This document shows positions 1 through 52,605 of a DNA stretch of 64,000 bases, piece after piece (the first letter of the stretch is position 1; each line of letters opens with the position of its first letter). Below the pieces are notes generated by a model, which was not told where the DNA came from, made no database searches, and saw nothing but the letters and a program-made list of their open reading frames with translations. The stretch is from Sipunculus nudus. Taxonomy: Eukaryota > Annelida > Sipuncula > Golfingiida > Sipunculidae. The stretch covers positions 54,887,886 through 54,951,885 of the forward strand of contig CM049322.1 in assembly GCA_026874595.1 (NCBI GenBank), in the 5' to 3' direction. Made by a program: the position numbers and the translations under genes.

Positions 1-345
1 TCAATGATTTAGATTTGAATGAAGCCGCCACAGGATTACGACAACAGAGGGCGCAACTGGTCACGAGATCGAGATGCCGTTATCCAAGATCTATGGACAT
101 GCACAATTTCAGCCTCATTCCTTGAAGCACATCTGACATACGCCTTTAATCATCAAGACGCACATATGGCAAATGCCTGGATGGACGCAAAGCAAACACG
201 AATGTAGATGGTGCAACCTATCTTGATTACGAGATGGAGATATCGAAGATCGATGGACATGCATCGTTTCAGCCAAATACCTCTAGCCACCCATGGTGTA
301 TGGCACGAGATCAAAAGTGTCCAAATAATTATGCCGAGTTTTAGA
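1..345 (+). repeat. Short degenerate tandem repeats, copy A
   Basis: Two degenerate units of about 157 bp share a GGACATGCA motif followed by TTTCAGCC (near 93-118 and 252-275). The same sequence starts copy B at 16,975-17,330. Related units occur at 3,330-3,430, 3,730-3,800, 20,350-20,420 and, as an array, at 39,700-40,500. The 62-codon open stretch at 19-207 lies inside this block. It is shared with 16,993-17,181 because the DNA is duplicated, and I do not consider it a gene. Confidence 0.6.
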
Positions 346-479
346 AAGATCACTCCGATGAGTTTTTCATAGACGTACGGGATTCGGCGGAATTCCCGAT
401 ATAGGATCAAAATAAAGAAAGTAAAATGTTTGCAAAAATCTATATGAAAATTTGACAAAAAGGAGAATTTCGACAAAAC

Positions 480-960
480 CACATACACTAAAGCAGCGTA
501 TGTTCACCCGAAGCCTCCTCTCTTGCTAATCATCAGATAACTGTTGACCCTATCTTCTACCCTAAAATAATATATGGATGTTTAGGTGAAATCAGACAAC
601 AAATGAAATAAGTGAAAACGTGAAGTGTAATCATGTCAGGTGTAATTATACCTATCGTTGTGAGATGTAGATTATTTTCCCAAAGTAGCGTGAACTGTGT
701 TAACAATTGTCTTATTGATAAGATTAAATAATATTAACTGTACACTGATTATCCAAATGAAGAGACCCATGGGAAATTACCACAACTGAATCCCATGATC
801 TTTCTTTATAACTTCAATAACGGTATTCTAACTAATCATTCTCTCCAAGCAGGTAAAATCTAGTTTGGTCATGCATCCTTTTCATGTCAATGTTAATAAT
901 CATCATATATTTCTTTATCAGTCATTAGGTGTACTTTCTGTACCTTTTACGTAATTAAAC
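480..960 (+). repeat. GATTATCC-type repeat block without tail, copy A
   Basis: This block has the order GTTAACAATTG, GATTATCCAAATGAAGAGACC, CCAAGCAGGTAAAATC and GTCATGCATCC. It matches 17,490-17,960 and, more distantly, the six longer family members ending in the GGACACCCTGCGTTA tail. It is part of the internal duplication structure. No gene is seen. Confidence 0.6.
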
Positions 961-1644
961 ATTATATTTATTAACAGCTATATTTTGGTGTAGGTTTCTA
1001 ATATTTTTTTAAATTATATTCGGTAGTGAGTTACAGGCTTTGGGACAAAACATTAAAAATTTCGAGAGTTTTAATGCGTAACTAATAAATGTGAAACTGA
1101 GGCCTCCGCTATGAAAAATAACAAAACTTTAAGTCATTTATAAAAAGCAAAATCAATTACGAGATCGCATTTAGAGGGGTTTTGGATAATTAAATATCAC
1201 AAAAGTAAGCCTATTGAAGTTTACATATTACTTAGCTTTCTATCTTTGTCTGGCTTTGACAGCCTAAAGCAGCTATCTCGCAATGTCCCGCATTTCATGT
1301 TCATAAAATATTGCTCTGAAATAATAAATGTAATTTTTATTTAGTCAATGCACAAGACTGCATGTTTTATTTATAGTTGGTGGTAAATGTATAAGTGAAG
1401 TTGATTCATCGCACAGTTTGTATTTAAGTTGTATGGTCTGTTGAATATTAATAATCAATAGTATTGATGCTTTTATCATAAGACGTAAGGAAAACCCCTT
1501 ACCAATCTGGAAAATCTTTTTGTTTTCTAAAAATAATATCCTAACACGGCTTAAATAAATTTCTTGTAGTTTAACATTATGGTAAATGTAATATGCCTCT
1601 CATTCTATTTTTTGGCTTGAATTAAATTTTAAAAGTATACTTGG

Positions 1645-1980
1645 GTCGATTTCCATGTTGCCCGACCCGCCAGTCGGTCCCAAACCGATTTTATGGTAAT
1701 CATGCACATGGCCCTTTGGAGGATGGGCTTAAAATTGAAAATTTTATCACAGTTAAATTCCTTTTATCAAACCGTCTTTTGATAACAGCCCCTTTTGCCC
1801 CGTTAAAATCCAAGGCGGACAGTTTTTCCCGTTCGTGATATTCATAAAAATAAATTAGGAGAAGATGTTCCTGAGCTTGCAAATGTTGACAAGCTGGTTG
1901 GTTTGTTAACCGATCTTACCAAAAACCAGGTGGGAAATGTTTCAAAGATCTCCCTTGTCTATAAAGCTTAATTATCTCAC
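1645..1980 (+). pseudogene. Unidentified coding-like block 1, copy A (broken)
   Basis: In the + frame, open sequence runs from about 1,645 (residues VPNRFYGNHAHG, then EDGLKIENFITVKF, then APLKSKADSF) to a stop near 1,838. A different + frame then gives GEDVPELANVDKL, GLLTDLTKNQV and SKISLVYKA to a stop at about 1,970. The two parts are joined only by an assumed frameshift. Copies at 18,654-18,975 and 42,395-42,760 keep pieces of these frames (LTDLSKDQVENVSKISLVY in B, KLKSKVDTFFP in C). I do not recognise the family. It could be a decayed exon or chance frame retention in duplicated DNA. Confidence 0.35.
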
Positions 1981-2439
1981 CACATCAAATCAACAAACTT
2001 GTTAGCTTGTTTCCGATAATTGTTCTCAGTAAATGTTGTTTATTCTGAGACAGAAAACGGTACTTTATCAAACGAAAACAACTATACATATAAAAATGCA
2101 CCTTTCTTCAGCAAGGGAAGCAGTTTAGGAAGTGACTTTCGGGCCGCTTGGTTTTAACTTCTATGAACAGGCAATCTAGTACGCATTCCTGTTGGAACTT
2201 TATGACCGTACATTAATTGACCGATTTAGTTTCATTGTACATATGAAATATATCGCTGCATATTGACCTACTCCTCACACGGGCCATGTTTTGTATGATG
2301 GCGCTGCGACAGCCATTTTTAAAAATACAGTTTCATTCCCATGAACTTATAGGAAATATAGAAAATTAACCCCTTGAAACGGAACTGAATAAAAAATGTA
2401 GAAAATTAACCCCTCGAAACACTTGACATCATTCCTTAC

Positions 2440-3115
2440 CGTTCAAGACCACAAACGTGAATATCCGTGACGTCGCCACAGAGACATTCCGTGAATAGGG
2501 TGGAGTGGTACCCCCCCCCCCCCGTCATTTAAAATAAACATGTTTCCGTGTCGACAAATAAATACTTTATAAATTAGTTTACATATATTCATATTTTCTT
2601 AACATAGACAAAGTATGTAAACCTGGGACCAACAGTCCGTAAAATATATCAGGAAACAAAAAAAAAAAAAAAAAAAATGGGCCGGGTCCACTCATGAACT
2701 GTAAACATAACATCACACATGCTTCCTTTTGTAAAACGCCATAAGAAAGCTGATCATTTACAACTGACACTTTTGTTCTTGAAAGCCCGGTAACTACATA
2801 GGCAGAAGAAACAGTGAAAAGACAAGATTATCTGACTCTTTTTCTCAGAAAAGGTCAACTGGGAATTTTAGAAAAACATAAGATCCAGTACGGTACGTGG
2901 TAAACAAATTAAAATCACCGGTTCTGAAGACAGATTAGTCCGTAGCAATTAGTGAGGAATACGGATACTTCCTTTTTATTCGCAGATGATTGGCATGTCA
3001 GCAAGAGGGCAACATTAAGATGCAGCCGTTGTTCGGTGTGTCTGACATGGACGAAATAGTAATCATATGTCGGGAAAACTGCGACATAATTGAACATGAA
3101 CAAGGCTTACAAATG
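2440..3115 (+). pseudogene. Unidentified coding-like block 2, copy A
   Basis: Two conserved stretches lie on the + strand. The first (about 2,443-2,510) reads FKTTNVNIRDVATETFRE and is interrupted by a poly-C tract. The second starts after a strong acceptor-like tract (CTCTTTTTCTCAG ending at about 2,850), holds a short conserved segment ending TACGTG before GTAAAC, and is followed by another pyrimidine tract ending in CGCAG at about 2,987. After that, a frame reading NIKMQPLFGVSDMDEIVII is kept in all three copies. This layout suggests two small exons and a small intron of about 90 bp. No family is recognised. Confidence 0.35.
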
Positions 3116-3324
3116 AAAAAAATAAAAGTTTTACTTTACTTAATATTGGCAATTAAACAATATTTTAACAAGTAATATACCGCTACACTGTATTGTAAGT
3201 GTCTAAAAGTTAATCACACAAATGTGGTCATGGTGTTTAATTTTGATGATTTAGTTTTGAATGATTTTAACCCAAAGCAAACGCTCAGCCGCAACAAGAA
3301 TAGCAGACCGCCAACGGTTTTGAG

Positions 3325-4128
3325 TTCGAGGTGGAGGTATCCCAGGTTCATGGACATGCACAATATCAGTCCAATACCGTGAAACACGATTTTACATATT
3401 TCACAAAATATTTAAACCGAGTTTCAGAAAGATCGGTCCATTGGTCTCAGATGATTTCTTCGTAGACGAACGCGGCGTCGTCGAAAGCCGCATGGAACCA
3501 TAATATCTGCACAACTCGATTATGGCTGATAGAATTTTATTGGGTTACAAAAAAAATTTCAAATGTTTTTCAAAAATCTATATGAATATTTGACAGAAAG
3601 GAAAATTCCGACATAACCACATAAATAAGCAGCGCAATATGTGCCTAAGCCTTACTTTGGTCAAACAGCAAATATCTGTTACCCATAGTTTCCACCCTGA
3701 AAATAATATATGAATGTGTCTGTACGTTCGAGGTGGAGGTATCCCAGATTCATGGACGTGAACAATTTCAGTCAAATACCTTGAAACACTTGATATGGCA
3801 AGATTTCACAAGTGACAAAATATTTAAGCCTAGTTTCAGAAAGATTACAGAACTTCTTCGTAGATGATCGCGGCGTCGTCGAAAGCCGCATCGAACTATG
3901 ATATCTCCACAACTCTATTATGGCTGATACAATTATATTTGGTTCCAAATAAAAAAAAAAAAAATCAAATGTTAGCAAATATCTATATGAAAATTTGACA
4001 GAAAGGAAAATTCCGACATAACCACATACAATTAGGCCTAATCCTCACCTTGGTCAAACAGCAAATAATTGTTGACCATAGTTTCGACCCTGAAATGATA
4101 TATGAATGTGTTTGTTAAAACGGACCAA
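3325..4128 (+). repeat. 402-bp tandem duplication private to copy A
   Basis: A motif TTCGAGGTGGAGGTATCCCA starts at 3,325 and again at 3,727, a period of 402 bp. Both units continue with TTCATGGAC, a CGCGGCGTCGTCGAAAGCCGC block and CTATATGAA..TTTGACAGAAAGG. Copy B has only one such unit (about 20,355-20,760), so the duplication arose in A after the A/B split or was lost in B. Confidence 0.75.
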
Positions 4129-5110
4129 AAAAAAAAAAAATGAAAAAAAAGCGAAATAGTATGAAGAGCACGTCAGGTGTAATTAGACATCTTTCCCATG
4201 AAGTAGTGTAGATTTGTTAAATCTAAATAATAAGATCATTATACTAATTGAAATTAATGCAAATGCCATGATCGTTCTTCATTAATTCAATAACGGTGTT
4301 ATCACCATCATGATATAGCACTTACAATCCGGTCCGGCCATTTATCCTTTTCCTGTCATTGTAATCAATAATTTTTCATCAGATATTGCTCTATCAATCA
4401 TCAGTATTCATCAAATGTCGTTATGTTATTATGTGATTCCTGATAACAAATGTAATCTTTCTTATCAGGAACTCTGAATTCCGATACATTATATTATTTG
4501 ATGCGAAACTGAGTCACCGGATAACGATAAACTGCATTACTGTATCACATGAGAAATCTCGTGAAGCCGGCGTAAAGCCCCCGGTCTAGCCCCGTTTTAG
4601 ACCCCCCCCCACCTGAAATCGATTTTAAATTACTCCATGGGTAATATTTGATTGGCTGTATTTGATTTAAGTTTTGATTTATATTTCAATTCTGAAATCA
4701 TATTCATATTTCAATTGACTCATGCACATCACCAAAGGGCATGATTCAATATAAACATACATGAGGTATGAACAAAACAATCTTATTTGAGAATTTCAGA
4801 GACAAATATGATAATATTCAGTGAATAATAAAATATACAAAAAAGTACATAAACGTAATATAAAGAACCAAATATTTTGAGCGGGTAATTTTAGAATTAA
4901 TCTGAACACTCTCTTGCAGGGGGTAATCTTAGTTGCGGGTAATCCGAAATCGCTATACCGGAAACCGTTTCAGGACACCCTGCGTTACGGCACGTGCTCC
5001 TGACATCTCCAGAGATGTACATCAATGGAATCATATCAAAATCTGTCAAGCAATGACGAGTCTCCCGCCTTCCCAGGATCCCTCAACACATTACAGAATA
5101 TAAAAAAAAT
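4040..5110 (+). repeat. GGACACCCTGCGTTA-tail repeat, member 1
   Basis: This is one of six members of a family whose right end is GGACACCCTGCGTTA, CACGTGCTCCTG and CCAGAG (here at about 4,974-5,014). A short + open stretch follows the tail and begins MESYQNLSSNDE at about 5,025. The CTCC..CCAG just before it looks like a splice acceptor. Equivalent open stretches follow the tails at 16,603 and 41,362. Confidence 0.65.
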
Positions 5111-6146
5111 GTTTCGTGACACACGCTGGGCTTTTAAATTTTAATTTAATTAAAAACCAGGAAAGAACAAAGAAATATAACAAATGTCTTTAATACGCAT
5201 TAATGTGTAACTCTGACCTCTGCTATGAAGATATAAAAGATTTTAAGTCATTTTTATTAAATCAAAATTGATCGCAAGATCGCATTGAAAGGGGTTTTGG
5301 AAAATTTAAGCCTTTTTAATGTTTTCATAAATATCAGCTTGATACCTTTGTCTGGCTTTAGCAGCCTTAAGAGGCAAAGGAGACGGGCTAGCTAGTCATG
5401 GCCAACATTTCTTGTGCATAAAGGTAGCATTAAAATAATATAGGTAATTGTCATTAAATCTACAAACAAGACTGCATGTATTATTTATAGTTGGTGTTAA
5501 TAAGTTAAGTAAACTTATCGCATATTTTTATTTAGTTGTATTGTCTTTTAAATTTTAGTTATAGTCTGTATTTATGTTTTTATTATGAAACCTAATAAGA
5601 TACCCTTACCAATCGTTAAAATAGTTTTTTTCTAAACTTAAAATCCTAACAAGTTAAATATATTCATTTCAATTATACTTTAAGGTAAATGTTATTCAAT
5701 TAGTCTTGAACCAACTTTATTTTTTTTCACTAATATCCTGTTAATTTTCTCCATTAATTTTTTTCCGTTTAACATTTTTTAACATTGTATGTTTGAATTC
5801 CAAATTTATCATGATGAGCCTACCATTATTGACACATACTAAATTAATTAAATTATATTCAAAATTCCGATTCAACGCCTCTGTTATGTTGACTCTTACA
5901 TCCCGGGTATATAACTGCAACAAGAATTAGTATTTTACTCTAATATATGGAACAAAAAGGTATCCTGTAAATACATATTATCTTTCCTGTTATCTTTCAT
6001 CTATAGGTACATTTTTTTTCTTTTCGTATAATCAATCAGTCCTGGTATGTTAAAAGAAACACATGTTTTTAAATAGTTCTATTTTCATTTATCTCTGTTT
6101 GTTCTACATTTTCATGAAGGTTTAATATTAGGAGATTCATCTTCAC

Positions 6147-7165
6147 TTAACTTTTAAATTCGGGCTTCACGTCTGTACAGAGCTCATCCGGTAACGTCAA
6201 ACAGATTGACATGTAAACATTTTTCTGAGTCAAACGGATTGGTTTTACGATGGCAGTCGCTTCAAAAGTAAGCCCTGTTCCCCAATAAAGGTCATTCGCC
6301 TGTGCTTTTATGAGAATCCTTTTTCTCTTAATTTTAGTGTCTTGATAAAAATGTCCACTCTGGTTAAGTTTAGCTGTCAGGATCTCTTTCATAACCCAGT
6401 CTTTTAGATTTTTCCCTTTCCGATTTTAACTTAAACTGAGAGGACAGAGCCTTTATACCCGAAGTTCTTCTTTGTCGAGATATCTGGTGTACCTGATCTA
6501 ACCGCCCGAGTGAATTAAAAGAAAAAGCCTGCATAACAAAGCCGAAATCTTAACCGCCATGATAAGGCCGTAAAATTCTCCGAGTTGAACGTTTACGGTT
6601 TGGTTGTAGGACTGTAGACGAATAAGACCTTGTCATGATCATCCTCAGAAGCCTCACATTCTCTATTCTCTTGTCACTTCTGTATGAGGGTTTACATTTC
6701 CATACTGCACATATTTTTAACCTTTTGTTGTCCGCTTTTTCTTCATGTTGGCTGATCCCGCACATCATGCTGTTAATGCTGAGCATACTTCATCTGAACC
6801 TTTAACGTATCGGTTTTAACGTCAGTTTTCTTATACATATACAAATACAAGTCTCCATTTTGATTTATGTCGGTTTACCGTTAATATCTCTTATATTTTC
6901 ATATTTTATTTCTCAACTCAGTTCTGCACCAAGTTGTATTAACAGGTCTATGATTTCATTATTGATAAAGGGAAAATTGATGCCTTTAACTATAACTTTG
7001 ATTATTTCTTGATTGGTCTGTAATCCAAGGAGTAAAAAGGTTCTTCAGACATTTTGTTTTTGTACCAATCTTCAGATAAATTCTTCACTGCGATCAAATT
7101 TTCTGACAGCATTCAATACCCTTAAAAGTTCCACAATCTGCAGCAACCTTTGACATTTAAAAAAA
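6147..7165 (-). pseudogene. Broken knuckle + NADAR-domain protein, copy A1
   Basis: Reading the minus strand, pieces appear in the order expected for a NADAR protein of the retroelement-linked type. First comes an N-terminal block (KVIVKGINFPFINNEI, then LLIQLGAELS, stop, EIKYENIRDI, about 7,005-6,885). A weak Cys block follows. Then ECEASEDDHDKVLFVYSPTT lies at about 6,660-6,600, then GIKALSSQFK. The NADAR core is open over 6,392-6,147: MKEILTAKLNQSGHF, ANDLYWGTGLTFEATAIVKP. The Asp and the Trp-Gly of the core are kept. NADAR domains act on ADP-ribose-linked substrates; this copy has frameshifts and stops and is surely inactive. It is the same in plan as 22,240-23,230 and 48,880-49,960. Confidence 0.75.
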
Positions 7166-8489
7166 AGTCAGACCCTTTCTTTTTTTAGAACACAAGATCC
7201 CTTTCAGTATGGAATACAAGCATGACAGATGCGAAATCCCGATATTAACCCTTCAAAAAAATGTAAACATTCTCTATAATTTCAGTTTAATGAATTCTAG
7301 TTTTTGAATCCCTGTGTCGATGCACACTGGGATTACCCTTGAGCCACTTTTTGTTCTAGTATTTCTGCTGAAATTACCTAATTGAAGCATCTACTTGAAA
7401 ATACCTCCTCGCAATGAGTGCGTCACATGACCTTCCATGCAGACCTGTTATTTATTTATAAAATTGATACAAAAGTGAAACAACATAAATACTGGTGTTG
7501 GAGACACTTGCTGTTGGTAAGATGGTGGGTGTATATAGTCTTAAGTTGTTTGTGGTAATAAAAATCAGTGTTTCTGGAAAAAAAATATATGTTCCTACCC
7601 AAAATCTTTAATATTCTCTAAGATTTCTGTTGATTCAACATTTTATGTTACACATACAGTCCTACTAGGTGTACAGTATTTTTAAATACAATATCATTTT
7701 CTAACCTTAGTAAACATCTACTTTTTATCTGATCACAAATGTGTGCCCTTAACTTTACATATAATTTTTTTTGTCGATAAAATAAACAAATGTGTATATA
7801 CTACGGTCTTGGCGTACTGAACACATTATTCACGTAGAATACATACTGAATATCTCAAGTTGCAGGTTTCTATAGGTTCTTATTATTTCTCTTAAACGTA
7901 TCATCAATAGTTAAAAAAAATCTAAGCCAGCTAGTCATTAAACTAAAATACCCAGGAAGATTGATTAAGATGAATCAGTATACCTACACTACCCACCGGT
8001 TACAGGCCTGAAAATAATTTTAATGGATCTATTTCTGATGGCTATTCCATCCTCAATATTCTTTGAGAGAACTTTGAATATATGCGATGACTGTGACACC
8101 GATAAATATACACGATGACAGCAATTAGCCGGGAGATCTATTGTTGTTTCCTTTCAAAAATTAAGTGATGGTTTTGGATTGACAATTATACCGTAAAAAA
8201 TGCATGTAAAATTTCTCATATATTTTTATTGCTCTGACAATGGAGAGTTTTTACAAAACAGCCCTTTTGGATGCCAAATCTACCAAGCTTAGAAGCCAGA
8301 AAAAATAACAAACCCCTTTAAACCCTCAAAAAAGAAGAAAGGAAAGATGGTAAATAAAATCACCATTGTCTGTAAACCTCTCCAGTCGACGGTGACAAAC
8401 ACAATATAGATAGGTGGATTCATAACGACTCTTCAGCTTTCCTATAATTTTTATTTAGTTCATAGTAAATCACTCACAGAAAGGCTGGT

Positions 8490-9125
8490 AGGGTGAAATG
8501 TTCCTTTTTCATGGCATATGCATATCTGTTCATATGATTAGATCCTTATATTAATTGATAATGATTATCCTAATGTAAAGACTCAAGGGAAATTTACACA
8601 GAAGGACGTTCGTAATAACCTCAATAATGGTATTTTAAATCACCATCCTATCACAGAAATTATGATCCAGTCTGGTCAGGCATTCCTTTCAATTCAGTGG
8701 GTGTAATATTCTTTCATCATATATTCCTAAATCGGTCTTCAGTTTTCATCAGATGACGTTATGCGTAGTGATTCCTGATAACAAATGTTATTGATCTCAT
8801 TTGAATCTCTGAAATCCAAATATTATATAATTTATACACATTGGGTATGGACCGAAAAAATCAACCTATTGGGGAATTTCAGGGGAAAATATGATAATTT
8901 TTAGTAAACAATCAAACATACAAACAATTATATTAACGTAGTGTAAAGAATCTAATCTTTTGAGTGATTATAATGGAATCGTAGGGAGTTATCTGATTAC
9001 GCTCTCTGACGGGGGGGGGGGGGGGTTATCTAAAGTGGGGTTAATCTGAAATTGCTTCACCATAATCCGTTGCAGGACACCCTGCGTTAGGGCACGTGCT
9101 CCTGTTATCTCCAGGTCATAGTTTT
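8490..9125 (+). repeat. GGACACCCTGCGTTA-tail repeat, member 2
   Basis: This is the same family order: ATTATCCTAATGTAAAGAC, a GGTATTTTAAATCACCAT block, a CATCAGATG block, a poly-G run (9,011-9,025), and the tail at 9,074. No MESYQ-like stretch follows here. It is paired with 24,590-25,070 in copy B. Confidence 0.65.
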
Positions 9126-9868
9126 AGGGAACTAGTTTCGAGGGACTGCCCTTAAGTGGCCGCAAATAGGAGATGCCATTAGTACAGCAACCTTTATGCT
9201 GTATATATGTACGTATGTGTTTGTGTTTTAATTCCAACTATAGATATCGGTTGCCAAAGATGATTAAATGTCATGTCCTTTTGTTATTTTTATCATTGGC
9301 ATAACACGTATTTTTTTAACTATGGCTTGCCGAGGTACACCAATAAACAAACTCTAGAAAAAAACTGCCATGCACCAATACAATATAGTAATAGTATTCA
9401 GCATAAACTAAACATTTTACCATGGTCATATAACACCCAGTTTTAACGTTATTATCATATACGTGCATATTTATGCTCTAACGAATTAATTATATACATA
9501 CGTATACTTCTGACATACAACTGCATGTTTATTAACACTATATATTCCCAGGTTTTATACGTATTCGCAAAATGCCATCACCAAATTAACAAATCATGAA
9601 TGAAAAGGGCATATCTACATTTTACAAAACTAAAGATACATATAAGTATAATACTTCACATTATACATTTCATACCCTGTCATCCATATTGCTCCATCAC
9701 GATATTTCTTTTCAGTGTGTAGGACCAAACAGTGCCACGTTTCAAAATATTTCCTCTCTAACCCTTTTTTCATGAGAATTTTTCATCTTTAATTCCACTA
9801 GAATATATTTAACAAAATATAAGAATTTAAGTTGCAATTCTAGCCTGTTAGTCTATGAATAAAGTGTA

Positions 9869-10138
9869 TTACCTGTATTTGGAATAATTTAATTGCTCTT
9901 GCCTGGTTTTGTCTTCATTATGGCCGAACAAGATTTCATCAACTGTTATTGAAAAAGTTCGTTGTGTATTTAAGAACGCCCATAGATGGCTAAGTGATTT
10001 CCTGAATTTTTTCATAATAAACGAGTTGCAGAACCTATGTTCTAGTGATTCTTTCTCGGTCTTGCAGATGTTACCCATGGGCTTTTCAATCAGTGTTCGA
10101 CAATGAAGCCTTTCATTATAAGGAATAATTATTTGCAA
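9869..10138 (-). pseudogene. LINE reverse transcriptase ORF, C-terminal end, copy A
   Basis: The 89-codon minus-strand open stretch reads IIPYNERLHCRTLIEKPMGN, ICKTEKESLEHRFCNSF, FRKSLSHL, SITVDEILFGHNEDK and QLNYSKY. This is the classic end of an L1/Tx1-type LINE second ORF: an IIPxN-RL segment, then a C..C-like knuckle followed by E-LEH-F-C, a Trp/Phe-Lys-Ser-Leu helix, then an ilFG motif and an LNY-tail. Of the usual knuckle the first Cys is changed to Gly here (C in copy B). No polymerase core was found upstream. It lies 2.1 kb downstream, on the same strand, of NADAR remnant A2. Confidence 0.7.
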
Positions 10139-10889
10139 ACATTTGAGTTGAAATTCTGGTAGTTTAGAATTTCTGGTCCTTCATTGTTAATTGAATGTGT
10201 ATTTGCCATTTCAAAGAGCTGTGGTCTGTCTATTGTTTGATTTTATGATATGATTAGAATAAAACATATGTTCATATTTTTTTTTTGTATGTTCACTTGG
10301 TTTAAGCTGCTTTGTATGTAATTGTTGGTAGATTATAATCATCATTTATACTATAATCTACACTAGAATGTACCACAGCTTTATATTTGTATGGTATCAA
10401 ATACAATATCCTCCATTTCCAATGTAAATCAAGAAAAGGCTTCACCTTAAGATATCTCATCGTAGCAAATTGTTTTGCCTGCAGTTAATTAACTTTTAAT
10501 CCGGCATGTATCTGATAAATAAATTTATTTATTGTATGCCGAGGTAATAAATGCATATCACGGGGAACAGAACATATGTACGATGAATATGAATGAAGCT
10601 TTTTACTATTTCTATCCTCCTAAATATACCTTGATTTTCTACCGACGAACTGTCTATATAATAACACTTGATGACTCTGCTGTTTATCGGTATCTAGAAG
10701 TGTAACGAGTCCAAACCTTAACTTTTTCACAAACCGCTCTCATCTTCTTAAAGACCACTTTTTGTGATTGTTCCTGGTAAATGTTTTATTGTATCGTCAT
10801 GCTTTTATGAGGTTTGAGTTGTTTTTACTTCTTGGATGGTCCTTATCTTTTTTTTTCAGTAAGTTATACTAATCGATGTGTCTAATCTT

Positions 10890-11070
10890 CTTACAAACAA
10901 AGGATTTGGCCGATTCACTACAAGATATCTTCATGGGGCCACTCTGGAAGTTCATTAATAATACACAAAAAATTGAACCAATCAAACCACACGTGCTTTA
11001 TGAGGCTTTCAAGAGACATTTGCTGCTTTTATTTCAAACGTTTAACATTGCCGTAAGGGCATCGTGAATC
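10890..11070 (+). pseudogene. Conserved + strand block 3, copy A
   Basis: An open + stretch reads LADSLQDIFMGPLWKFINN, then IEPIKPHVLYEAFKRHLLLL, then FQTFNIA, ending at 11,067. The B counterpart (26,884-27,020) keeps IKPIKPHMLY in the same frame but is shifted elsewhere. C lacks the region through a 270-bp deletion. Family is not recognised; it may be an exon or chance. Confidence 0.25.
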
Positions 11071-11224
11071 TGACCAATTAAATAAAGCCTTGTAAGACAT
11101 CCCTTTTCTGGCAGGGCTTATATTGATTTAGGTATGGCCGAAAAATATGAATTTTCTGTTTATTTATGATATTACTTTTAAACAGGCATACATAAAAACA
11201 TTGACGTTTAGCACAATGAGAGTG

Positions 11225-11490
11225 GAAAATGTCTAGGATTTTATTCAATCAAGATTTTAGCTGTTATGTGATCTACTTTTTTTTGTTGAAAATGTTCAGC
11301 TGTTGGAAAATCTTAAAATTATAACTGATGACAATGTTGATGTTCTACCAAGATCCTTTTCTAAAACGGCAAAAGTAGGCGCCCGAATACTGAAGTTGAT
11401 GAAGTCAGGACCCCCGCTCTAAGCGCTCCTTCAGCAACGATTAAGACGAATTTTAATTATTATGTCTTAACTATAAGGTATAAAGATTAG
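11225..11490 (+). pseudogene. Conserved + strand block 4, copy A
   Basis: This diverged version of 27,213-27,488 keeps the frame segments ITDDNVDVLPRSFSKTAKV and GARILKLMKS before a deletion and stop. No family is recognised. Confidence 0.3.
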
Positions 11491-12214
11491 GAGAAACTCG
11501 GAGGACATACAGAAGAAACACTTAGGTTTATGACAGCCACAATGCCCAACATTTTTAAATCATTTTTTTAAAATATGCATTTGGTCAGTGATATTCTTGT
11601 GCATAGTTTCATGCTTTCTTCAACATTTAAGCAAAAAAAAAAAAAGCGCACTTTGCCGTTGTATTATTAATATTACGAATTCAACAGGTTTTTATTTCTG
11701 TCTTTTTTTAGCAGTTGTTTTGCCAAATTCACGTTAGTGGCAATTAAAGTGGCCAGCAGTTATTAAATACTTTTCTTAAACTGTGTGTCGTATTATAATA
11801 GGGGTCATCATCATTATCTCTTTGAAAGTGATTTCCTCCATGTGATTATCCCCATTGAAAAAAAACAGCTGACAATGCTGGCTGAACAAGATTCCGGTCG
11901 AATGCATGTGCAAATAAGTAAAATATTCATTTAAAAAGCATATCTATAAAAGGGGAACTGCCTATTTTCATTGTTTGGTGCATATGTTCATACTAAAGGC
12001 ATTTTTTTCTGGTTTTAAATTCGAAATGTACTATGATAAGCTTAATTTTATTGCCACGTACAAAATTAATTAAATCATGTTCAAAGATTCGACTCAACGC
12101 CTCTGTGATATTTTTCTATAACATTTGGTACAAAAACACTAGTAGAAACATAATGGCTACCTTGTTATCTTTAAATTTTTTTTTCTTTTCGTAAAATCAC
12201 TTAGTGCTCCTATG

Positions 12215-12680
12215 TGTCTACTCTGGTTAAGTTAAGCTGTCAGGATTTTTTATAACAATTATTTTTTTTTCTCGATCCGAATCTGACCTAAACTGGGAAG
12301 GAAAACGCTTTATACCTCGTTGGTCTGTGGCTTCTTTGTTAGGATAGCTGGTCAACCTGATCTGATCGCCCGCGTGTATTAAAAAGCCTGCTTAACAAAG
12401 TCGAAATCCCAACCGCCATGAAAAGGCTCTCAGTTCCTCCGAGTGGAACATTGTTAGCACTCTATACAATTAAAACCTTGTCATGATGATTCTAAAACGC
12501 CTCAAATTATGTTGTCACTTCTGTATATGATTTCCATACTGCACAGACTTTACGTTTTTCACGTTTTGATGTAAGCTTTTTCTACACGTTGGTCGATCCC
12601 TGACACCATGCTGGTATTTCTGAAACATTTTGCATGTCAAACTGTTCTTAACGTTTTTAATGTGAGTTTTTAGAGTATAT
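12215..12680 (-). pseudogene. Broken knuckle + NADAR-domain protein, copy A2 fragment
   Basis: This is the counterpart of 28,235-28,640, recognisable by the minus-strand sequence for HGGWDFDFVKQAF-like residues near 12,385-12,422 and the GACAGCTTAACTTAACCAGAG segment near 12,220-12,240. It is more decayed than B2. The N-terminal half is lost because similarity to copy B stops near 12,690. Confidence 0.6.
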
Positions 12681-21420: not shown

Positions 21421-22239
21421 AATTTAATTTAATTAAAAACCAGGAGAGAACAAAAAATATATCAAATGCCTTCAATACGCAATAAATGTGTAATTCTGAC
21501 CTCCGCTATGAAGAAATAAAAAATTTAAGTCATATTTAATAAATCAAAAATAGATCGCAAGATCACATTTATAGAGATTTTGGAAAATTTAAGCCTTTTT
21601 AAAGTTTACATGAAAATCATCTGTTTACCTTTGTCTGGCTTCAGCAACCTTAAGCAGCCAAATGAACGGGCTAGCTGGTCATGTGCAACATTTCATGTAC
21701 ATAAAAGGTAGCATTGAAATAATGAAGGTAATTTTCATTAAAATAAAATCCTAACGAGTTAATTATATTCATTTCAGTTATATTTGAAGGTAAATGCTAT
21801 TCAATTAGTCTTGAACCAACTTTATATTATTTCAATAATATCCTGTTAATTTTTCCCCATTAGGTTTCCCCGTTCAACTATTTAAACATTGTATGTTTCA
21901 TTCCAAATTTATTACGGTGAGACTACCCTTATTGACACATACAAAATTAATAAAATTATATTCAAAATTCCGATTCATCGCCTCTGTTATGTTGACTCTT
22001 ACATCACGGGTATATGATTGCAGGAAGAATTAAACATTTTTACTAATAAATGGAACAAAATGTATCTTGTTAAAAAAGTAATATCTATCTTGTTATCTTT
22101 CATCCATAGGTACAGATATTTTTTTTTCTTTTCGTATAAACAATCAGTCCTGGTATGTTAAAAGAAACATATATTTTTAAAAAATTCTATTTTCATAAAT
22201 CTCTGTTTGGTTTAAATTTTCGAGAAGGTAGATTATTGG

Positions 22240-23230
22240 GAGATTTATCTCTACTTGACTTTTAATATCAGGCTTCACGTCTGTACAGTGCTCATCCGGT
22301 AACGTCAAACAGATTGACATGTAAACATTTTTTTCCCAGTCAAACTGTTTGGTTTGACGATGGCAGTCGCTTCAAAAGTAAGCCCCGTTCCCCAATAAAG
22401 GTCATTCTGCTTTGGTTTTATGAGAATCTTTGTTTCACTTTGTTGTAGTGACTTGAAATTTCCACTCTGGTAGATTTAGCTGTCAGGATATCTTTCATAA
22501 CCCTGTCTTTTTTATGTTCACTGTCCGAATCTGACTTAAACTGAGAGGACGGAGTCTTTTTATCCGATGGGTTTGTGGCCTTGTCGAGATCTGGTCTACC
22601 TTATCTAACCACCCGACTGTATTGATCAGCAAATGATAAGGCCGTACATTTTTCCGAGGCGAACACTGACAGTTTGGTTGTAGCACTGTAGACAAATAAG
22701 ACCTTATCATACTCATCCCCAAAAGCCTCACATTCTGTTGTTACTTCTGAATAGGGTTCAAATTTCTGTACTGCTCAGACTTTTTAACATTCCATTGTTC
22801 GCTTTTTCTACACGTTAACTGATTCCTCACACCATGTTGGTACTACTAAAACATTCTTCATCTGAAGCTGTCTCTTACCGTGTTTAACAGAATGGCTTTG
22901 TCCTTAATGAAATTTTCAAATGCATATACAAATATGTCTCCATTTTGATTGATTTTGGTTTACCTTCAATATCTCAGATTTTTATATTTGATTTCTCCCC
23001 TCAGTTCTACACCAAGTTGAATTAACATATTTGTGATCTCATTATTGATATAGGACAAAGAGATGCCTTTTACTATAACTGTTCTTGTTTCTTGATTGTA
23101 AACCAAGGAGTAAACATGTTCTTCAGACATTTTGTTCTTGTATCAATCGTCTTCAGATAAATTCTTTACAGCAATTCAATTTTTTGACAGCCTTCAATGC
23201 CTTCAAACGTTGCACAATATGAGCAACCTA
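22240..23230 (-). pseudogene. Broken knuckle + NADAR-domain protein, copy B1
   Basis: Minus-strand pieces in order are SLVYNQETRTVIVKGISLSY and INNEITNMLIQLGVELRGEI (about 23,110-22,990), NGDIFVYAFENFIKD (about 22,945-22,900), then TECEAFGDEYDKVLFVYSAT (about 22,740-22,680). After one stop comes a long open run ending DRVMKDILTAK (about 22,590-22,480), and then NDLYWGTGLTFEATAIVKP with LTGK (about 22,408-22,340). A one-base insertion in an A run then shifts the frame before NVYMSICLTLPDE. Compared with copy C, the EQAFQF segment is deleted. This copy has the fewest stops in its central part. Confidence 0.75.
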
Positions 23231-24589
23231 TGACATTCTAAAAACAAGTCAACCCCTTTCTTTTTGGGAAAACAAAATCCCTTTCAATATGGAATACGAT
23301 CATGAGAGGTGGGAAATCAAGATAATAGTCCTTTAAAAAATGTGGAAATGCTATAAAATTTCTGGTTAATAAATTCTAGTTTTTGAATTCCTGTGTCGAT
23401 GCTCACTAGGATTAACTTTGTGCCACTTTTTGATCTATTATTTCTGCTGAAAATGCAGCTATTCGAAAATATCTCTTCACAATGAGTTCGTCACGTGACC
23501 TTCTAGGCAGACTTATTCGTTATTCATGAGATTGTTACAAAAGTAAAGCAACATATATACTAGTTCGGCTGAGAGATCCTTGCTGTTGGGAAGATGGTGG
23601 CTGTATATGGTATTAAGTTGTTTGTTTTAATAAAATCACTGTTTCTGGAAAACAGATACATGTTCACGCCCACCATCTTTTATATTCATTTATCGACTTC
23701 TGTTCATGCAACATTTTATGTTTCTCATACAGTCCTTCTAGGAATACAGTATTTATAAATACTATAACATTAACCCAGCTTAGAGCACATCTACTTTTCT
23801 TTTTGGTCACAAATATGTGCCCTCGACTTGTCATATACCTTTTTTTCGACAAAATAAATAAATATGTATATACACAACGGACATCGTGTACTGAACACAT
23901 TATTCACATATTATACACACAGAATATCTAAAAATGCAGGTTCCAATAGATTATTATTTCTCTTGTAGTATCATCAATAGTTAAACAAATTTCAAGCCAG
24001 CGTGTTTTTAAACTACAATACTTAGGAAGATTGATTAAGATGAATCATTATCCCTACACGACCCACCGGTTACAGGCCCGAACATAATTTTAATAGATCT
24101 ATTCCTGATGGGTATTCCATCCTCAATATTCTTTGATAGAACTTTGAATATATGCGGTAACAGTGACACTGGTGACAGCAATCAGCCGGGAGATCTATTG
24201 TAGTTTCCTTTAAGCCCACAATTGAATGAAAATTGAGAATAGGTTTTGAATTGACAATTATTACGTGAATAAATGCATGTAAAATCTCTCATATATTGTT
24301 ATTGCTCTGACAACGGAGAGTTTTCATTAAACAGCTCTCTTGGAGACCAAGTGCACCAAGCTTAGAAGCAAGTAAAACTAACAACCCCCTCCCCCCAAAT
24401 AAAAAGAAGAAAGGAAAGATGGAATAATAAAATCACCATTGGTTGTAAACCTCTCCAGTCGATGTTGTCAGACATAATATAGATGGGTGATTTCAGAACG
24501 ACTCTTCAGCATTCGTAGAACTTGTAGGCTACGTCAGATTATTAAGTTCATAGTAAATCACTCGCAGAAGTAGTTGAAGGCTGGTAGTG

Positions 24590-27488: not shown

Positions 27489-28234
27489 AAGAAACTCGGA
27501 GGACATACGGAAGAAACACTTGGCAGAAATTTCGGAATCCATTTTTTTAAATATGCTTAGGGTCAGTGGTATTCTTGTGCACAGTTGGAGTTTCATGCTT
27601 TCTGCAAAATTTAAGCAATTCTGTTGAAGAAGCGCAATTGGCCGTTGTATTATTAATATTACGAATTCAACAGAGTGTTAATATCCGTCTGTTCGAGCTG
27701 TTGTTTTGTCGAATTCACGTAAGTGGCAATTAAAGTGGCCAGCAGTAATTTAATACTTTTCTTTCACTGTGTGTCGTAATATAAATCTGAGCCTGTCATC
27801 TAATATCTTTGAAAGTAATTGTCCCCATGTGATTTTTCCAGGGCCCTATTGAAAAACAGCTTAAATTGCTGAATGAACAACATCCCGGTTAAATGCATGA
27901 GCAAATAAGTAAATTATCCATTTTAAAAAGCCTATTTATAATAGGTGAACTGCCTTTCCATTATTTGGTGCATATATTGATCTTAGAGCCATTTTCTGGT
28001 TTTTAAATTTTAAGTGTACCATGGTAAGCCTACTTTCATTGTCACGTACATAGTTAATTAGATTATATTCAAAGATTCTACTCAACGCCTCCGTTATATG
28101 TTTTCTGTAACCTTTGATACAAAATTCGTCAAAAACGTAATATCAATCTTTTTATCTTTCATCCATAGGTACAGTTTTTTTTCCCTTTCGTATAACCACT
28201 CAGTCCTCCTATGTGTCTTGCAAAATTGTCCTCT

Positions 28235-28990
28235 CTGGTTAAGTTTAACTGTCAGGGTTTCTTTCATAACCCTCTATTGTTTAATCTCCCAGGCCCAATC
28301 TGACTTAAACTGCTAGGGAAGAGACTTTATACCCGATGGGTGTGTAGCTTCTTTGCAAAGATAGCTGGTCTACCTGATCTGATCGTCCATGTTGCTGAAG
28401 AGCCTGCTCAATAAAGCTTAAATCTAAACCACCGTGAAAAGACCCTGAATTTCTCCGAGTGGAACGTTGATAGTTGGGTTGTAGACACGTAAGACCTTGT
28501 CATGATCATCGTCAAAAGCATCACATTCATTGTCACTTCTGAATCGGGTTCAAAATTCAATACTGCACAGAATTTTTAACATTTTGTTCTCCTCTTTTTC
28601 TTCACGTTGGTTAATCCCGCACATCATGCTGATATTGCTTAAAAACATCCTGCATCTGAAACTCTCACGCACCGTATTAACGGTAATTTTCAAATACTTA
28701 TACATATATGTCTCCATTTTGATTGATGTCGGTATACCTTATATTTCCATATTTTTTCCTCGACTCAGTCCTGCTCCAAGTTGAAATAACATGTTTGTGA
28801 TCTCATTATTGTTATTCGGCAAAGGGGTGACTTTTACTGTAACTTTTTTTTCTGTATTTCTCGATAGATCTATATTCCTAGTAGTAAAAGGGTTCTTCAG
28901 ACATTTTGTTCTGGGTTCAATAGTCTTCAGATAAATTCTTCACAGTGATCCAATTTTCTTGTACTTTTTAATGCACTCAAACGTTACACA
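28235..28990 (-). pseudogene. Broken knuckle + NADAR-domain protein, copy B2 (C-terminus lost)
   Basis: On the minus strand, remnants run from NNNEITNMLFQLGAGLSRG (about 28,815-28,755) through FKQYQHDVRD and ECDAFDDDHDKVLRVYNPT (about 28,530-28,475). They continue through FHGGLDLSFIEQAL (about 28,440-28,395), SGIKSLP and FKSDWAWEI, to RVMKETLTVKLNQRGQF (about 28,272-28,225). The DLYWG half of NADAR is missing; sequence passes straight into TTGCAAGACACATAGG. Copy A2 ends at the matching place, so the truncation predates the A/B duplication. The conserved Trp after FKSD fits the NADAR W..vM..iL pattern. Confidence 0.7.
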
Positions 28991-29766
28991 ATCTGCAGCA
29001 AGCGATTACATGCTAAACAAAGTCAGATCCTTTCTTTACGAAACACAGGATCCCTTTTATTATTGTATGCGAGCAAGACAGATGTTGATTCCACGGCTGG
29101 CGCCGACAATTAATAGCCTCTAAAAAATAAAAAAAAATTTCTCTATAATTTTAGTTTAATGTATTCTATATTTGCACTCCTCTGTGGATGCATACTTGAC
29201 TCACCCTTGTGCCACTGTTTACTCTTCTTGTATGTCTTGCTGACAATCTCCCAATGAATGCAGCTAAAGATCCCTCCTTGCAATGAGTCAGTCACGTGAC
29301 CTTTCATGCAGACTTGCTCATTATTAATGAAATTGTAGCAGAAATGAAGCAAGGGATCTACTACTGTTGCTGCCAAATCATTGCTGTTAGGGAGTTGGAG
29401 ATGGTTTTGAGGTCTTTATTTGAATGTGATAATAAGTAATCACTGTTTCTTGAAAGAAAAATATGTTCTTTCTCACACTATTTAATATTTATTTATCGAT
29501 TTCTGTTTTTGCAACCTGTCATGTTTCTAGGTGTAACACATTTTTAAATATGACAAAATTTCTTAGATAAAATTTTCTTTATTTTATCTGTCCACAAATG
29601 TGAATTACCTGTCATCATCCTTTTGTCATCGAAATACTACGGACATCGCGTATTTAACACATTATTTACATAAAATGCAATAGAATATCCCAAATTCTAA
29701 CAGATCTCTTTGATTTTCTTCTTTTAAGTATCATCAGTAGTTAAACAATTTTGATGGCTACGTATC

Positions 29767-41547: not shown

Positions 41548-41635
41548 AATCAGTGAATGGCTGTGGCTTTTTGAATAAATCCAGTTCCATCTTATTCCTT
41601 TCAAAACATTTTCATTGCTTTCTTTTTAATTACAG

Positions 41636-46309: not shown

Positions 46310-46585
46310 TTTTATTAAGTCATGTTTTGAGCTCTTATGTGTTCCACCTTTTTTTTGTTGAAAATGGTCAACTTTGGAAAAATCCTCAAATTATAACTGA
46401 TAACAACGTCGATGTTTTACCAACAACCTTTTTTAAAGCAGAAAATCTAGGCGCTCGAGGGCTGTAGTTGATGAGGTCAGAAACCCCGCACTAGGCGCTC
46501 CTTCGCAACGATAAAGAAGATATGTTAGTGAATGTTTTATTATTATGTCTTAACTATACGATCCAAAGAGTAGGAGAAATTTAGC
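46310..46585 (+). pseudogene. Conserved + strand block 4, copy C
   Basis: This is the counterpart of 27,213-27,488. It reads NPQIITDNNVDVLPTTFFKA and then GARGL before a stop at about 46,468, so the frame is broken in the tail. Confidence 0.3.
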
Positions 46586-47285
46586 GAACATAGCTAAGGT
46601 TTATGGCAGCCTCCAGAAGGTGCGGAAATTTTAGGTAATTTTTATGATGCCTAGGGTCTGTAGTGTTTTTGTGCAAAGTGTCAATCTGGAAAATTTAAGC
46701 AATTCCAGTGAAAAAGGATACAAGTATTATAAAGAATTAAAAAGGGCTTTTATAGCTGTCTGTTCCAGCGCTTGTTTTGACACATTCAAATAATTTGGAA
46801 CTAAAATGGTCAGCATTGATTGGATTATTTTCTTTTACTGTGTGTTGTAATATTAATGTGAGCGTGTCAAGTGTCATTCTCTGTTTAAATGTAAATCTCC
46901 TTGTGATTTTTCGAGGATCCAATTGAAAAAAACTGGTGTTTTTGCTAAAAGAACAATATCCCGGTTAAATAAATATGCACATAAGTAAATCATCCATTTA
47001 TAAGCATATCTATAATAGGTACACATCCTATTTTCATCAATTCCTTGTTTCGTAATTCTAAATGTACCATGTTAAGCCTACCATCATTGTCACATACATA
47101 AATTATATTTAAAGATTCGACTCAACGCCTGTGTTATATATTTTTTTATAACATATGGTACAACAACTCGCTTGTAGAAACCTAATGTCTATCTTGTCAT
47201 CTGTCATCGATAGGTGCAGTTTTTTTATTCTTTTCGTATAATCACTCGGTCCTCGCTTGTTTAAGGAAACACATTTTTATAAATA

Positions 47286-48867: not shown

Positions 48868-48879
48868 TAGTACTATTTT

Positions 48880-49960
48880 CATTTATCTATTTTTGTTTTA
48901 ATTTTTGTGAAGGTTAACAATTGGAGATTTCTCTCTACTTGATTTTTAATCTCAGGCTCACATTTTGTACAGAGCTCATCGTATAAGACATAAAGGATTG
49001 ACATGTAAACATTTTCTCCAGTCGAAAGGTTTGGTTTGACGATGGCAGTCGAATCAAAAGTAAGCCCGGTTCCCCAATAAAGGTCATTCATTTTTGCTTT
49101 TATGTGAATCTTTGTTTCACTTTGTTGTAGTGTCTGGCAAAAATGGCCACTCAACCTGTCAGGATTTCTTTCATAACTCCTTTCTTCTTTAACTTTCCCC
49201 GTCCAAATCTGGCTTCAGATGAGGCGACAGAGCCTTTATACCCGGGTTTATAGCCTTTTTGTCGATCTATCTGCCTGATCTAATCGTCCGTGTGAATTGA
49301 AAGGCCTGCTCAACAAAGCCGAAATCTAAACCACCGTGAAAAAAGGTCGTAAATTTCTCTACATGGAACATAGATAGTGGGGTTGTAGAACTCTAGACAA
49401 ATGAGACATTGTGATGATCATCCTCAAAGGCCTCACATTCTGTCATCCCTTCTGTATGGGGTTTAAAGTTACATACTGCACAGACTTGAGGTATTATACA
49501 TTTTGCTGTCTGCATTTTCTACACGTTGGCTGGTCCCTCATATCATGCTGGTATTAATGGAACATTCTGCATTTGAAACCGCCACTTACCTCTATTAACA
49601 GAAATGGTTTGTCTTATATTTAGTTTTCAAATACATTTACAAATATGTCCCCATTTTGACTGACGTCGGTTTACCATCATGTTTCTTATATTTCCATATT
49701 TTATTTCTCCACTCAGTTCTGCACCAAGTTGAACTAACATGTTTGTGTTTATATCATTATTGATATAGGAAAAAGGGATGGCTTTTACCGGAAATTTTTT
49801 TATGTATCTTGATTTGTATGTATTCCCAGTATTAAAAGGATTCTTCAGATATTTATTTGGATTCAATGGTCCTGAGATATATTATTCACAGGAATCTAAT
49901 TTTCTGAGAGCCTCCAATACACCCAAACATGAAAAAAATCTGTAGCAGGTTATGACATAC
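48880..49960 (-). pseudogene. Broken knuckle + NADAR-domain protein, copy C (best preserved)
   Basis: This minus-strand copy has the most complete domain set. The N-terminal block is open over 49,866-49,627 (LKNPFNTGNTYKSRYIKKFP, VKAIPFSYINND, LVQLGAELSGEIKYGNIRN). A Cys-containing stretch CAVCNFKPHTEG is followed by TECEAFEDDHHNVSFV (49,481-49,390). HGGLDFGFVEQAFQFTR lies at about 49,345-49,290 and keeps the Glu of the NADAR EhaYq-type motif. GVMKEILT then leads to a final open run at 49,154-48,879 with NDLYWGTGLTFDSTAIVKP and LSTGENV. Stops and shifts separate the parts. A pogo-like element (47,286-48,867) sits only 12 bp past the end. The family assignment rests on motif order, not on a search. 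Confidence 0.8.
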
Positions 49961-51344
49961 TAAACAGAGTAAGAACCTTTCCATTTGATAACACAATATC
50001 CCTCTCAATATTTAATACGAGCATGACAGGTATGGATTCCAAATAATAGTCTTTCCAAAATATGAGAAAATTCTCTATAATTTTAGTTTAATGTTTTGAT
50101 AATTGTATAATAAGTAGATGCATGTTTTGTTCACCCTTTTGCCACTTTTTGTTTCTGCTGATAGTTTCTGTTAATAATGGCCTAATCAATGCTGCTTCTT
50201 TAGGATCCCTCCCCGCAATGAGCGCACCTCGTGACCTTTCATGCAGACTTGTTCATTTTTTTTATGAAATTGATGCAAAATGAAGCAAGGTATCTAATAG
50301 TGTGGCTGGGAGAGATCCTTGCTGTTAGGAAGATTGTGGGTGTATATGGCATTAAGTTGTATCTGGAAAGAAATATGTTTTCGTACTCAAATTCTTTATT
50401 ATACAATTATCGATATATGTTCTTGTAACCTGTTATGTTTCCCATACACTGTTTCTAGGGATAAAATATTCATAAATATAATTAAGAATCCTCATCTAAG
50501 GTAACATTTGCTTGTTTTAACCGTTCATAAATGTGTCCTTGATTTGTCAAACAGCTTTTGTTGAAAAAAAAATAAATGTGTAAATTTATTACGGGCATCG
50601 CGTACTGAACAAATTATTCACATATAATGCAAACAGAATATCCCAAATAAAAGATTTCAAAAGTCTTTTAAATTTCCTTTGATGCATATCATTAATAGTT
50701 GAACAATTTTGAAGGCAGCGTGTCATCAAAATACAACAAACAGAAAGATTTATTAGAATGAATTAGCTTCCATACACATCCTATCGGTCACCCGCCCCAA
50801 AATAATTTTATCCTTCCGCAATATTAGTTTGATAGAACTTTGAACATATAGCCTAACAATCACACTGATAAATGCACAAGATGACGGTAATCGCCGAGAG
50901 ATCAGTTTAAGATTCCCCCAAGCCCATAGCTGAATGATAATTGAGGATAAGTTGTGGAATAAAAATTATTTCATTGAAAAAATGCACATTAAATCTCTTA
51001 AATATAGCTTTAACTCTAAGCATGGAAAATGTACACAAAATCAGCCCTCTTGGACACCAAGCGGACCAAAAAATACCCCTACCCCTACCCCCTCCCCCCC
51101 CCCAAAAAAAAATGGTGTAGACATATAAATCATCAACGGCTGTTAACCTCCACAGTCGACGGTGACAGGCACAATATACATAGGTGATCTCATAACGACT
51201 ATTCAGCTTTCATATTTGTTGGTGACGTCACTTAAGTAAGTTCATGGTTAATCTCTCGCACAAAGGCTCCTTGTTTATTCATATTACGTACACCTGTTCA
51301 GGAATGCGTTTTCCGAGCATACGTCGCTTGCGATGTTATCCTTC

Positions 51345-51600
51345 ATTACACTGTTTAACTGTAAGTGCCTCCTGGGAGGGTATGCTTTCTTACTCGTTCG
51401 CGTATATGTTTGTTTGTGTGTTTGTTCACAACATAACTCACGCAGCCACGAACTGAATCTCATGAAATTTTCAGGGCATTTCGGGAAAGGATAAAGAAAG
51501 AATAAATAAGATATTGATTATTATCCAGCATCTTCTCCTAATTTATCAAGAAATATTCACAATATGCATGAATGAACCTGAGATTATTGGCATAAAAAAT
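51345..51600 (+). repeat. GT-rich dispersed repeat, copy 3 (C)
   Basis: TCCTGGGAGGGTATGC leads to TTTGTTTGTGTGTTTG, then CACAACATAACTCACG, GAATCTCATGAAATTTTCAG and GGGCATTTCGGG. It is better preserved than its B partner at 30,645. Confidence 0.6.
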
Positions 51601-52537
51601 AAGTAAATGCACAGAAGGCCCGGCCACTTGATCAGGTCACGTCGGAGCGACAGTGTCCACACAGCGCGGTTGTAACCTTTGTCCCCATGGTAGAGGCATT
51701 TATACATGCAAATTTCTAGTTCTATTATATATTTTGCAAAGGAATAAACAAAAATGCATTATTTAGACTATGAATTATTAATATAAACCCTAACATTCTA
51801 GGAGTGTGTACTTCCACATCAAAAAGTACCTGAGGTTTCCTGTCGAAGTTTTATTGTGCCGACTAAGTTGGTTACTGTTGTTAAGCCCTAGATCACCATG
51901 TCATCTCATTATAAGTCCAACCAGGAGAATTACCTCTTATGTCCCGCTGGCATAATTAGGCTTTGTGTATCCTGAAGTAATCCATGTCCCGGGCATTCCT
52001 TTAGGCTTCATATTTATTCAAAATTCTTGATGAACACGTTTCTCCGTTCGCTTGAAGCAGGCACTCGAGCTACAGTCCATGAAGAGCTAATTATTAATGA
52101 TACAATATTCGCAGAAATCATCACTCAAAAGTAGGTTGGGTATGTACGATTTGTTAGGTCTAAAATATGTAAGTACATGTACGCTGTTTCTTTTGGAATT
52201 CCCATAATGATTGATTTACGCAAAAAAAAAAATAATTTAAGTACCTTTGAAAAAAAAGGGTTTCCAAAGTTTCCGTCATCCATCCGTTAATGTTCAGTAA
52301 AGTTATTTGATACGAACAAATGAAGCTTTCACTGTTTGGATAAAAATGTTGAAACTAAAATCTAAAAGTAATTTGGTTCTACCTCAACCAAGGTATGTAT
52401 TACCTATTTTCGTGGATTATCCATCTAAAAATGTCGACTATTATTTAGCCCTACATTTTAGTTAGTTATAGAAAAACTTATTATATTTTGCAATCACGAT
52501 ATTTTAGGGTAAGAAGTAACTTCCTCTGCTTTTTGTA

Positions 52538-52540
<3 letters not shown>

Positions 52541-52602
<62 letters not shown>
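52541..52602. repeat. (AT)n microsatellite, 62 bp
   Basis: Present in copy C only; copy B has GTATCAATATCAAAGTG at the matching site (about 31,800). Confidence 0.95.

Positions 52603-52605
<3 letters not shown>

Follow-up and report, generated by a model that had tools for sequence, protein, structure and literature searches.

The 64,000-nucleotide stretch of Sipunculus nudus DNA analyzed here (the window) contains five related minus-strand loci in which a zinc knuckle seems to be followed by a NADAR (YbiA-like) domain, and a reading made from the sequence alone took them for five decayed copies of a LINE ORF1 protein carrying an ADP-ribose-processing fold. What element these relics came from, how there came to be five of them, and what such a fold would do in a retrotransposon are the questions addressed here. 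All five copies are dead, and the repeats that the window holds are ordinary ones; what makes the relics worth attention is the thing they point to, a constrained and apparently non-catalytic NADAR domain of a LINE ORF1 protein (ORF1p) that is shared with TRIM-like proteins.

Origin of the five window relics

A relative on another chromosome (L022, at C8:64.45 Mb) retains an open ORF1 of 424 aa, and tblastn with this protein matched all five minus-strand loci, with best E values of 1e-65 (the copy at 22 kb), 1e-41 (28 kb), 8e-36 (6 kb), 1e-34 (49 kb) and 2e-6 (12 kb). Five homologous loci thus lie where the sequence-only reading had placed them. Its statement that all share the same motifs holds as far as homology goes, but NDLYWGTGL is readable in three of the five and EQAFQF in one, and at 12 kb the copy is short and incomplete. 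The start of L022 ORF2, which encodes an APE endonuclease, matches just downstream of every locus. Numbered along the window, and all on the minus strand, copy 1 occupies 6074..7432 (5' end at 7432) with its ORF2 start at 5744..6105; copy 2, partial and without a 5' end, 12215..12680 with ORF2 start at 11674..12115; copy 3, 22187..23500 (5' end at 23500) with ORF2 start at 21901..22181; copy 4, 28213..29301 (5' end at 29301) with ORF2 start at 27630..28213; and copy 5, 48868..50236 (5' end at 50236) with ORF2 start at 46725..47276. Copy 5 has a broken ORF1 that ends near 48880, a complete CX2CX4HX6C zinc knuckle at 49435..49482 (CAVCNFKPHTEGMTEC), and a NADAR relic in two frames at approximately 48951..49400, in which EQAFQF (49294-49311), MKEILT (49157-49174) and NDLYWGTGL (49062-49088) can be located. 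The roughly 1.6 kb between its ORF1 and ORF2 start has no homology to the other copies in the window comparison.

Homology to ORF2 stops within about 200 codons in the window copies, and a search of the whole window recovered no reverse transcriptase (RT) relic in any of the five, the best RT tblastn match having an E value of 0.9. Compared with the Pfam NADAR profile by themselves, three of six window pieces gave weak matches (E values of 0.001, 0.028 and 0.062), all below the cut-off; the NADAR assignment of the window copies therefore follows from their homology to L022 ORF1, for which the profile check that had been proposed succeeded (3e-26). With the 49-kb copy as a DNA query against the genome, the other four window copies were retrieved at 71–73% identity, together with six copies outside the window that are 67–71% alike and two more diverged places.

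The 5' end of the element (GGTCACG...) is identical in L022, L029, L031 and L051, each of which has a different flank. Four of the five window copies begin at precisely this base, at 7432, 23500, 29301 and 50236, and have a common flank in front of it, AACAAGTCTGCATGAAA, matched with 2, 4, 1 and 0 mismatches, respectively. Homology continues 0.5–1 kb outward beyond the 5' end: the genomic flank at 50237..51263 (minus strand) is common to copies 1, 3 and 5, and about half of it also to copy 4. Since four copies have a single 5' flank, they are one insertion that was duplicated segmentally, and the five separate decayed copies of the sequence-only reading become duplicates; independent insertion of all five is ruled out by the same flank. 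Pieces of the block with copies 1 and 2 (1..12643) are 79–86% like its partner at 16975-28663, where copies 3 and 4 are found; a third block, at 40.5–57.7 kb (40500-57700), is more diverged. The duplications are old, and a tree of the copies joins those at 6 kb and 22 kb with support of 98/99. The window thus holds one old insertion of a LINE, probably of the L1 superfamily, that was subsequently multiplied and of which nothing beyond the beginning of ORF2 can be recognized. That all loci lie in one array duplicated as large blocks would also suit an origin from a domesticated cellular gene, with the loci as its decayed exons and no LINE involved; however, four of the five start at the exact LINE 5' end (GGTCA), which elsewhere adjoins unrelated flanks, and a LINE APE ORF adjoins all five, making that origin highly improbable.

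Two other features of the window may be recorded. Further repeats of 400–500 bp occur in it, for example at 402-925, 15645-16167, 17381-17937 and 40515-41000, and two low-complexity ORFs (124 and 137 aa) arise from a microsatellite stretch at 60381-60794.

The LINE lineage and its relatives in the genome

At least 141 NADAR pieces are present in the 1.43-Gb genome (150 of 204 candidates scored). From these, 53 loci (L001-L053) were picked by score and open frame, a choice in which better-kept copies are over-represented; L006 and L024 coincide, leaving 52 distinct places. Twenty-eight of the 53 are of the knuckle-NADAR ORF1 type, here termed lineage I, and an APE frame lies downstream in all 28. 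They fall into seven families, labeled F1 to F7 for this analysis, with 6, 5, 7, 3, 4, 2 and 1 members, respectively. A scan restricted to the 400 bases upstream of NADAR found the CX2CX4HX6C knuckle in 25 of the 28 LINE loci, in all five loci of the TRIM-like group discussed below, and in none of the 20 others. ORF1 sequence upstream of the knuckles is homologous across the seven LINE families; it has no Pfam match to an RRM and can be described only as conserved.

The best-described member is L022, in which an ORF1 with zf-CCHC (3e-5) and NADAR matches in Pfam is followed by APE and RT frames. This copy, the one examined for these features, has an A-rich 3' tail and, after an A-run, a 17-bp target-site duplication (16/17 matching). 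Its ORF2 is broken into several frames. Pieces of the L022 family are 94–98% alike, which suggests that this lineage was still mobile long after the window insertion took place. RT is present in all nine lineage-I loci examined as stretches of about 10 kb, with frames broken; a fully open ORF2 was found in none of the nine. The proposal that a zinc-knuckle and NADAR protein serves as the ORF1 of a LINE is therefore borne out by relatives with an open ORF1 beside an APE-RT ORF2, and neither of the two outcomes that the sequence-only reading named as refuting it came about, although ORF2 was broken in each of the nine long stretches. Open ORF1s score above the whole-protein cut-off of 35.1 bits for Pfam NADAR (PF08719) in L022 (93.1), L014 (64.3), L018 (47.4), L023 (87.3) and L048 (47.6). 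Against PDB, the RT of L014 (F3) matched 8c8j, annotated as ‘RNA-directed DNA polymerase’ (2.6e-35), and LINE-1 ORF2 (4e-35), followed by R2 and similar enzymes at 6e-10 or weaker. The lineage is probably of the Tx1 type within the L1 superfamily; in the PDB comparison, made for F3, the nearest RTs are LINE-1 ORF2 entries.

A second group of loci has NADAR behind an L1-type ORF1 region: L006 (= L024; 886-1935), L008 (1495-1956) and, more distantly, L005 (1387-1953). The ORF1 region matches LINE-1 ORF1p in PDB at an E value of 0.002 and Pfam Transposase_22 at 0.078, the latter below the cut-off. APE and RT fragments lie downstream in L024 and, weakly, in L008; neither was found within 1.5 kb downstream of L005. 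All three loci keep Glu or Asp at the catalytic-acid column of NADAR and lack E43. As they form their own clade elsewhere in the NADAR tree (99/98), they apparently represent an independent capture, and this separate fusion with its acid kept is new as far as the literature was searched.

The pairing of a LINE with NADAR is not itself new. For the Pacific oyster, a published report (PMC12477816, Genome Biol 2025) describes the ORF1 proteins of several Tx1 LINE families as apparent NADARs of the YbiA family, identified by a Repbase protein match, and suggests a role in RNA processing. To call the pairing little described was fair, but it was already in print. Compared by description, the Crassostrea gigas Tx1 elements and the present LINE, both LINEs of marine animals with NADAR in ORF1, are very probably the same kind of element. 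The accessible part of the report does not deal with catalytic residues, a knuckle, TRIM relatives or a second lineage. It also describes Gypsy elements of Ectocarpus that, as here, captured a NADAR domain, although these are LTR retrotransposons of a brown alga with NADAR at the N-terminus of Pol rather than in a LINE ORF1, and blastp matches of their NADAR were almost only bacterial. An esterase in a LINE ORF1, as presented in the sections available of PMC3905857, is likewise an enzyme-like accessory domain, though a different one. The available portions of a bivalve transposon survey (PMC10294476) mention Tx1 and not NADAR, DUF1768 or YbiA, and all three terms are absent from those of an octopus LINE paper (PMC9115989); PMC9503650 makes no mention of transposons, retrotransposons or retroelements.

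Active site and constraint of the LINE NADAR domain

The catalytic columns were located by reference to two NADARs of solved structure, 8bau and 2b3w, and to section 12 of PMC11543638. Residue numbers are those of the oomycete enzyme, which 8bau is taken to be by inference, its chain numbers being two higher. The lineage has the same domain by sequence as E. coli YbiA (2b3w), 8bau and the DarT1-associated NADAR of the available text of PMC11543638, and E43, D130 and W133 are partly kept; it differs from these hydrolases in lacking the catalytic Glu/Asp and, in six of seven families, in replacement of the Lys. The acid column is readable in 27 of the 28 LINE loci, the exception being L051, whose frame is lost at that point, and is Glu or Asp in none of the 27. 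It is Asn in seven (F1 and F6), Tyr in five (F2), Leu in 11 (four F3 loci, F4 and F5), and His in three of the seven F3 loci; in L048 it is either Leu or His, according to how the sequences are aligned. Lys occupies the column in the three window copies readable there, and Gln in all five TRIM-like loci; Glu or Asp is present in 18 of the 20 other loci (the exceptions being L028 and L040) and Glu in all five bacterial plasmid NADARs. Elsewhere in the pocket, E43 is kept in six of the seven families and the K50 position is Lys or Arg in five, this position being Arg, Cys or Ala in six of the seven (Cys in F3, Ala in F7). E43 and D130 are both kept in F1 to F6, F4 and F5 have neither W89 nor W133, and F1, F2 and F6 retain most of the pocket. 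Taking a hydrolase to need Glu at E43, Lys at K50 (Arg works in vitro) and Glu, Asp or His at E125, no lineage-I family combines the first with Lys/Arg and with one of the last three.

The domain has nonetheless not drifted freely. For four pairs of families, pN across NADAR was 0.22–0.41 vs a pS of 0.78–0.85, with silent sites saturated. Six within-family pairs have very few changes, and their ratios are mixed: 0.14 in F2, 0.37 in F1 and in F4, 0.89 in F5, and 1.11 and undefined in F3. Judged by the comparisons between families, the LINE NADAR domain is under constraint. Constraint without the catalytic acid indicates a fold still in use, though probably in a capacity other than that of the known hydrolase, and argues for a binding role.

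That the LINE NADAR is instead a working ADP-ribosylhydrolase, clearing the LINE RNP or cDNA of guanine-ADP-ribose (or of ADP-ribose on protein) and so countering host ADP-ribosyltransferases, appears quite unlikely. Such an activity would suit the constraint between families, the retention of E43 and D130 in F1 to F6 and the Glu/Asp of the second LINE lineage (L005, L006 = L024, L008), and, according to the available text of PMC11125620, phage NADARs that carry His in place of the acid have activity. Against it stand the lack of Glu/Asp in all 27 readable lineage-I loci, the replacement of Lys by Cys in F3 and by Ala in F7, and the loss of W89 and W133 in F4 and F5. In DarT1-NADAR, Ala or Asn at the acid position abolishes efficient hydrolysis (PMC11543638, available text). 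With His in three of seven F3 loci and active His-bearing phage enzymes, inactivity may not extend to all families; F3, however, has Cys where the essential Lys is expected. A search of the genome for a guanine transferase (Scabin-like, PF22596) gave no match, a result of little weight because control genomes gave none either. The ADP-ribose processing proposed for the window element is thus not upheld: no copy of the lineage that can be read at this column has the acid, and Lys stands there in the three readable window copies.

If the NADAR domain is indeed a non-hydrolytic one, ORF1p would package LINE RNA through its zinc knuckles while the fold, a hydrolase no longer, would act as a binding or assembly module; in F1, F2 and F6 it may read an ADP-ribose-like mark.

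An ordinary-looking NADAR piece with Glu kept (L063) was noted in a NADAR cluster at C15:13.1–13.2 Mb, perhaps a spliced host gene family.

TRIM-like proteins with the same module

Five TRIM-like host proteins (L009-L013, on C5 and C3) end in the CX2CX4HX6C knuckle and NADAR, each as a single open frame (L009:4532-6559; L010:4632-6659; L011:4803-6425; L012:3096-5024; L013:4527-6314); the NADARs of three of these loci lie within 22 kb on C5. Pfam scans of four of the five detected RING and B-box in L009 and L012, B-box only in L011, and neither in L013 at an E value of 0.01; the N-terminus of L010 is nearly identical to that of L009. Residues 444-615 of L009 match residues 194-363 of a LINE ORF1 (L014) at 40% identity in blastp (2.8e-37). 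Three TRIM-like pairs gave dN/dS values of 0.12, 0.19 and 0.19, and four of the five copies keep the pocket residues E, K, W, D and W, differing solely by Glu to Gln. In a tree built without the six active-site columns, the TRIM-like rows fall together with the LINE lineage and L048 in a single clade (99/96), separate from the NADARs of bacteria and from those that stand free or are associated with MULE; L040 was omitted, and the bacterial rows were five plasmid NADARs among the 12 listed of 88 matched records. That TRIM-like knuckle-NADAR tails group with the LINE versions is new as far as the literature was searched, and no NADAR-TRIM or NADAR-RING fusion was found there, judged by titles and the beginnings of abstracts.

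Either direction of travel of the module is compatible with the tree, since forcing the LINE, or the TRIM, sequences into a single clade gave a fit no worse than that of the unconstrained tree in an AU test (p about 0.55). The whole module may have been exchanged between a TRIM-like gene and the LINE, and transfer from LINE to TRIM seems the more likely direction. Acquisition by the LINE from a host TRIM-like gene would be possible, if less probable: the knuckle and NADAR are common to both end to end, the tree does not show which group nests in which, and four of five TRIM-like copies keep the pocket except for Glu to Gln. However, the module is common to seven LINE families whose ORF1s are also homologous upstream of it, which makes it an old part of the LINE, and zinc knuckles, ordinary in retroelement ORF1 and Gag proteins and unusual in TRIMs, also count against that direction.

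Taken as a whole, an old LINE insertion whose family had a non-hydrolytic NADAR in its RNP and exchanged the module with a TRIM-like gene is, from the sequence evidence, quite probably the best explanation, with confidence slightly reduced by the want of an open-ORF2 copy and by L013, in which neither RING nor B-box was detected. Through the TRIM-like tails, the sharing of a module between a host and the ORF1 protein of a retrotransposon becomes testable. Primate TRIM5-CypA fusions are a known instance of a TRIM with a C-terminal module that decides recognition, the cyclophilin having been captured via LINE-1 activity, whereas the tails described here are similar to the ORF1 of the LINE itself. 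A bolder scheme would be that an ADP-ribosylhydrolase captured by a LINE lineage became a module of ORF1 without catalytic function, and that the host then grafted this knuckle and NADAR onto TRIM ubiquitin ligases that now recognize or poison ORF1 particles. This is speculative and on balance unlikely; if true, a retrotransposon's own coat domain would have been turned into a restriction factor.

NADAR in this genome thus occurs in two LINE lineages, as tails of TRIM-like proteins and in ORFs near a MULE transposase ORF. In the last setting, a NADAR ORF lies within about 0.8–1.2 kb of a long ORF at L019:1-5565, L020:133-5813 and L021:4412-9901, the order being alike in L019 and L020 and the orientation opposite in L021. 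L019, the one locus of the three scanned for domains, has a GDSL lipase with the NADAR ORF, and its adjoining long ORF carries MULE transposase and PHD domains.
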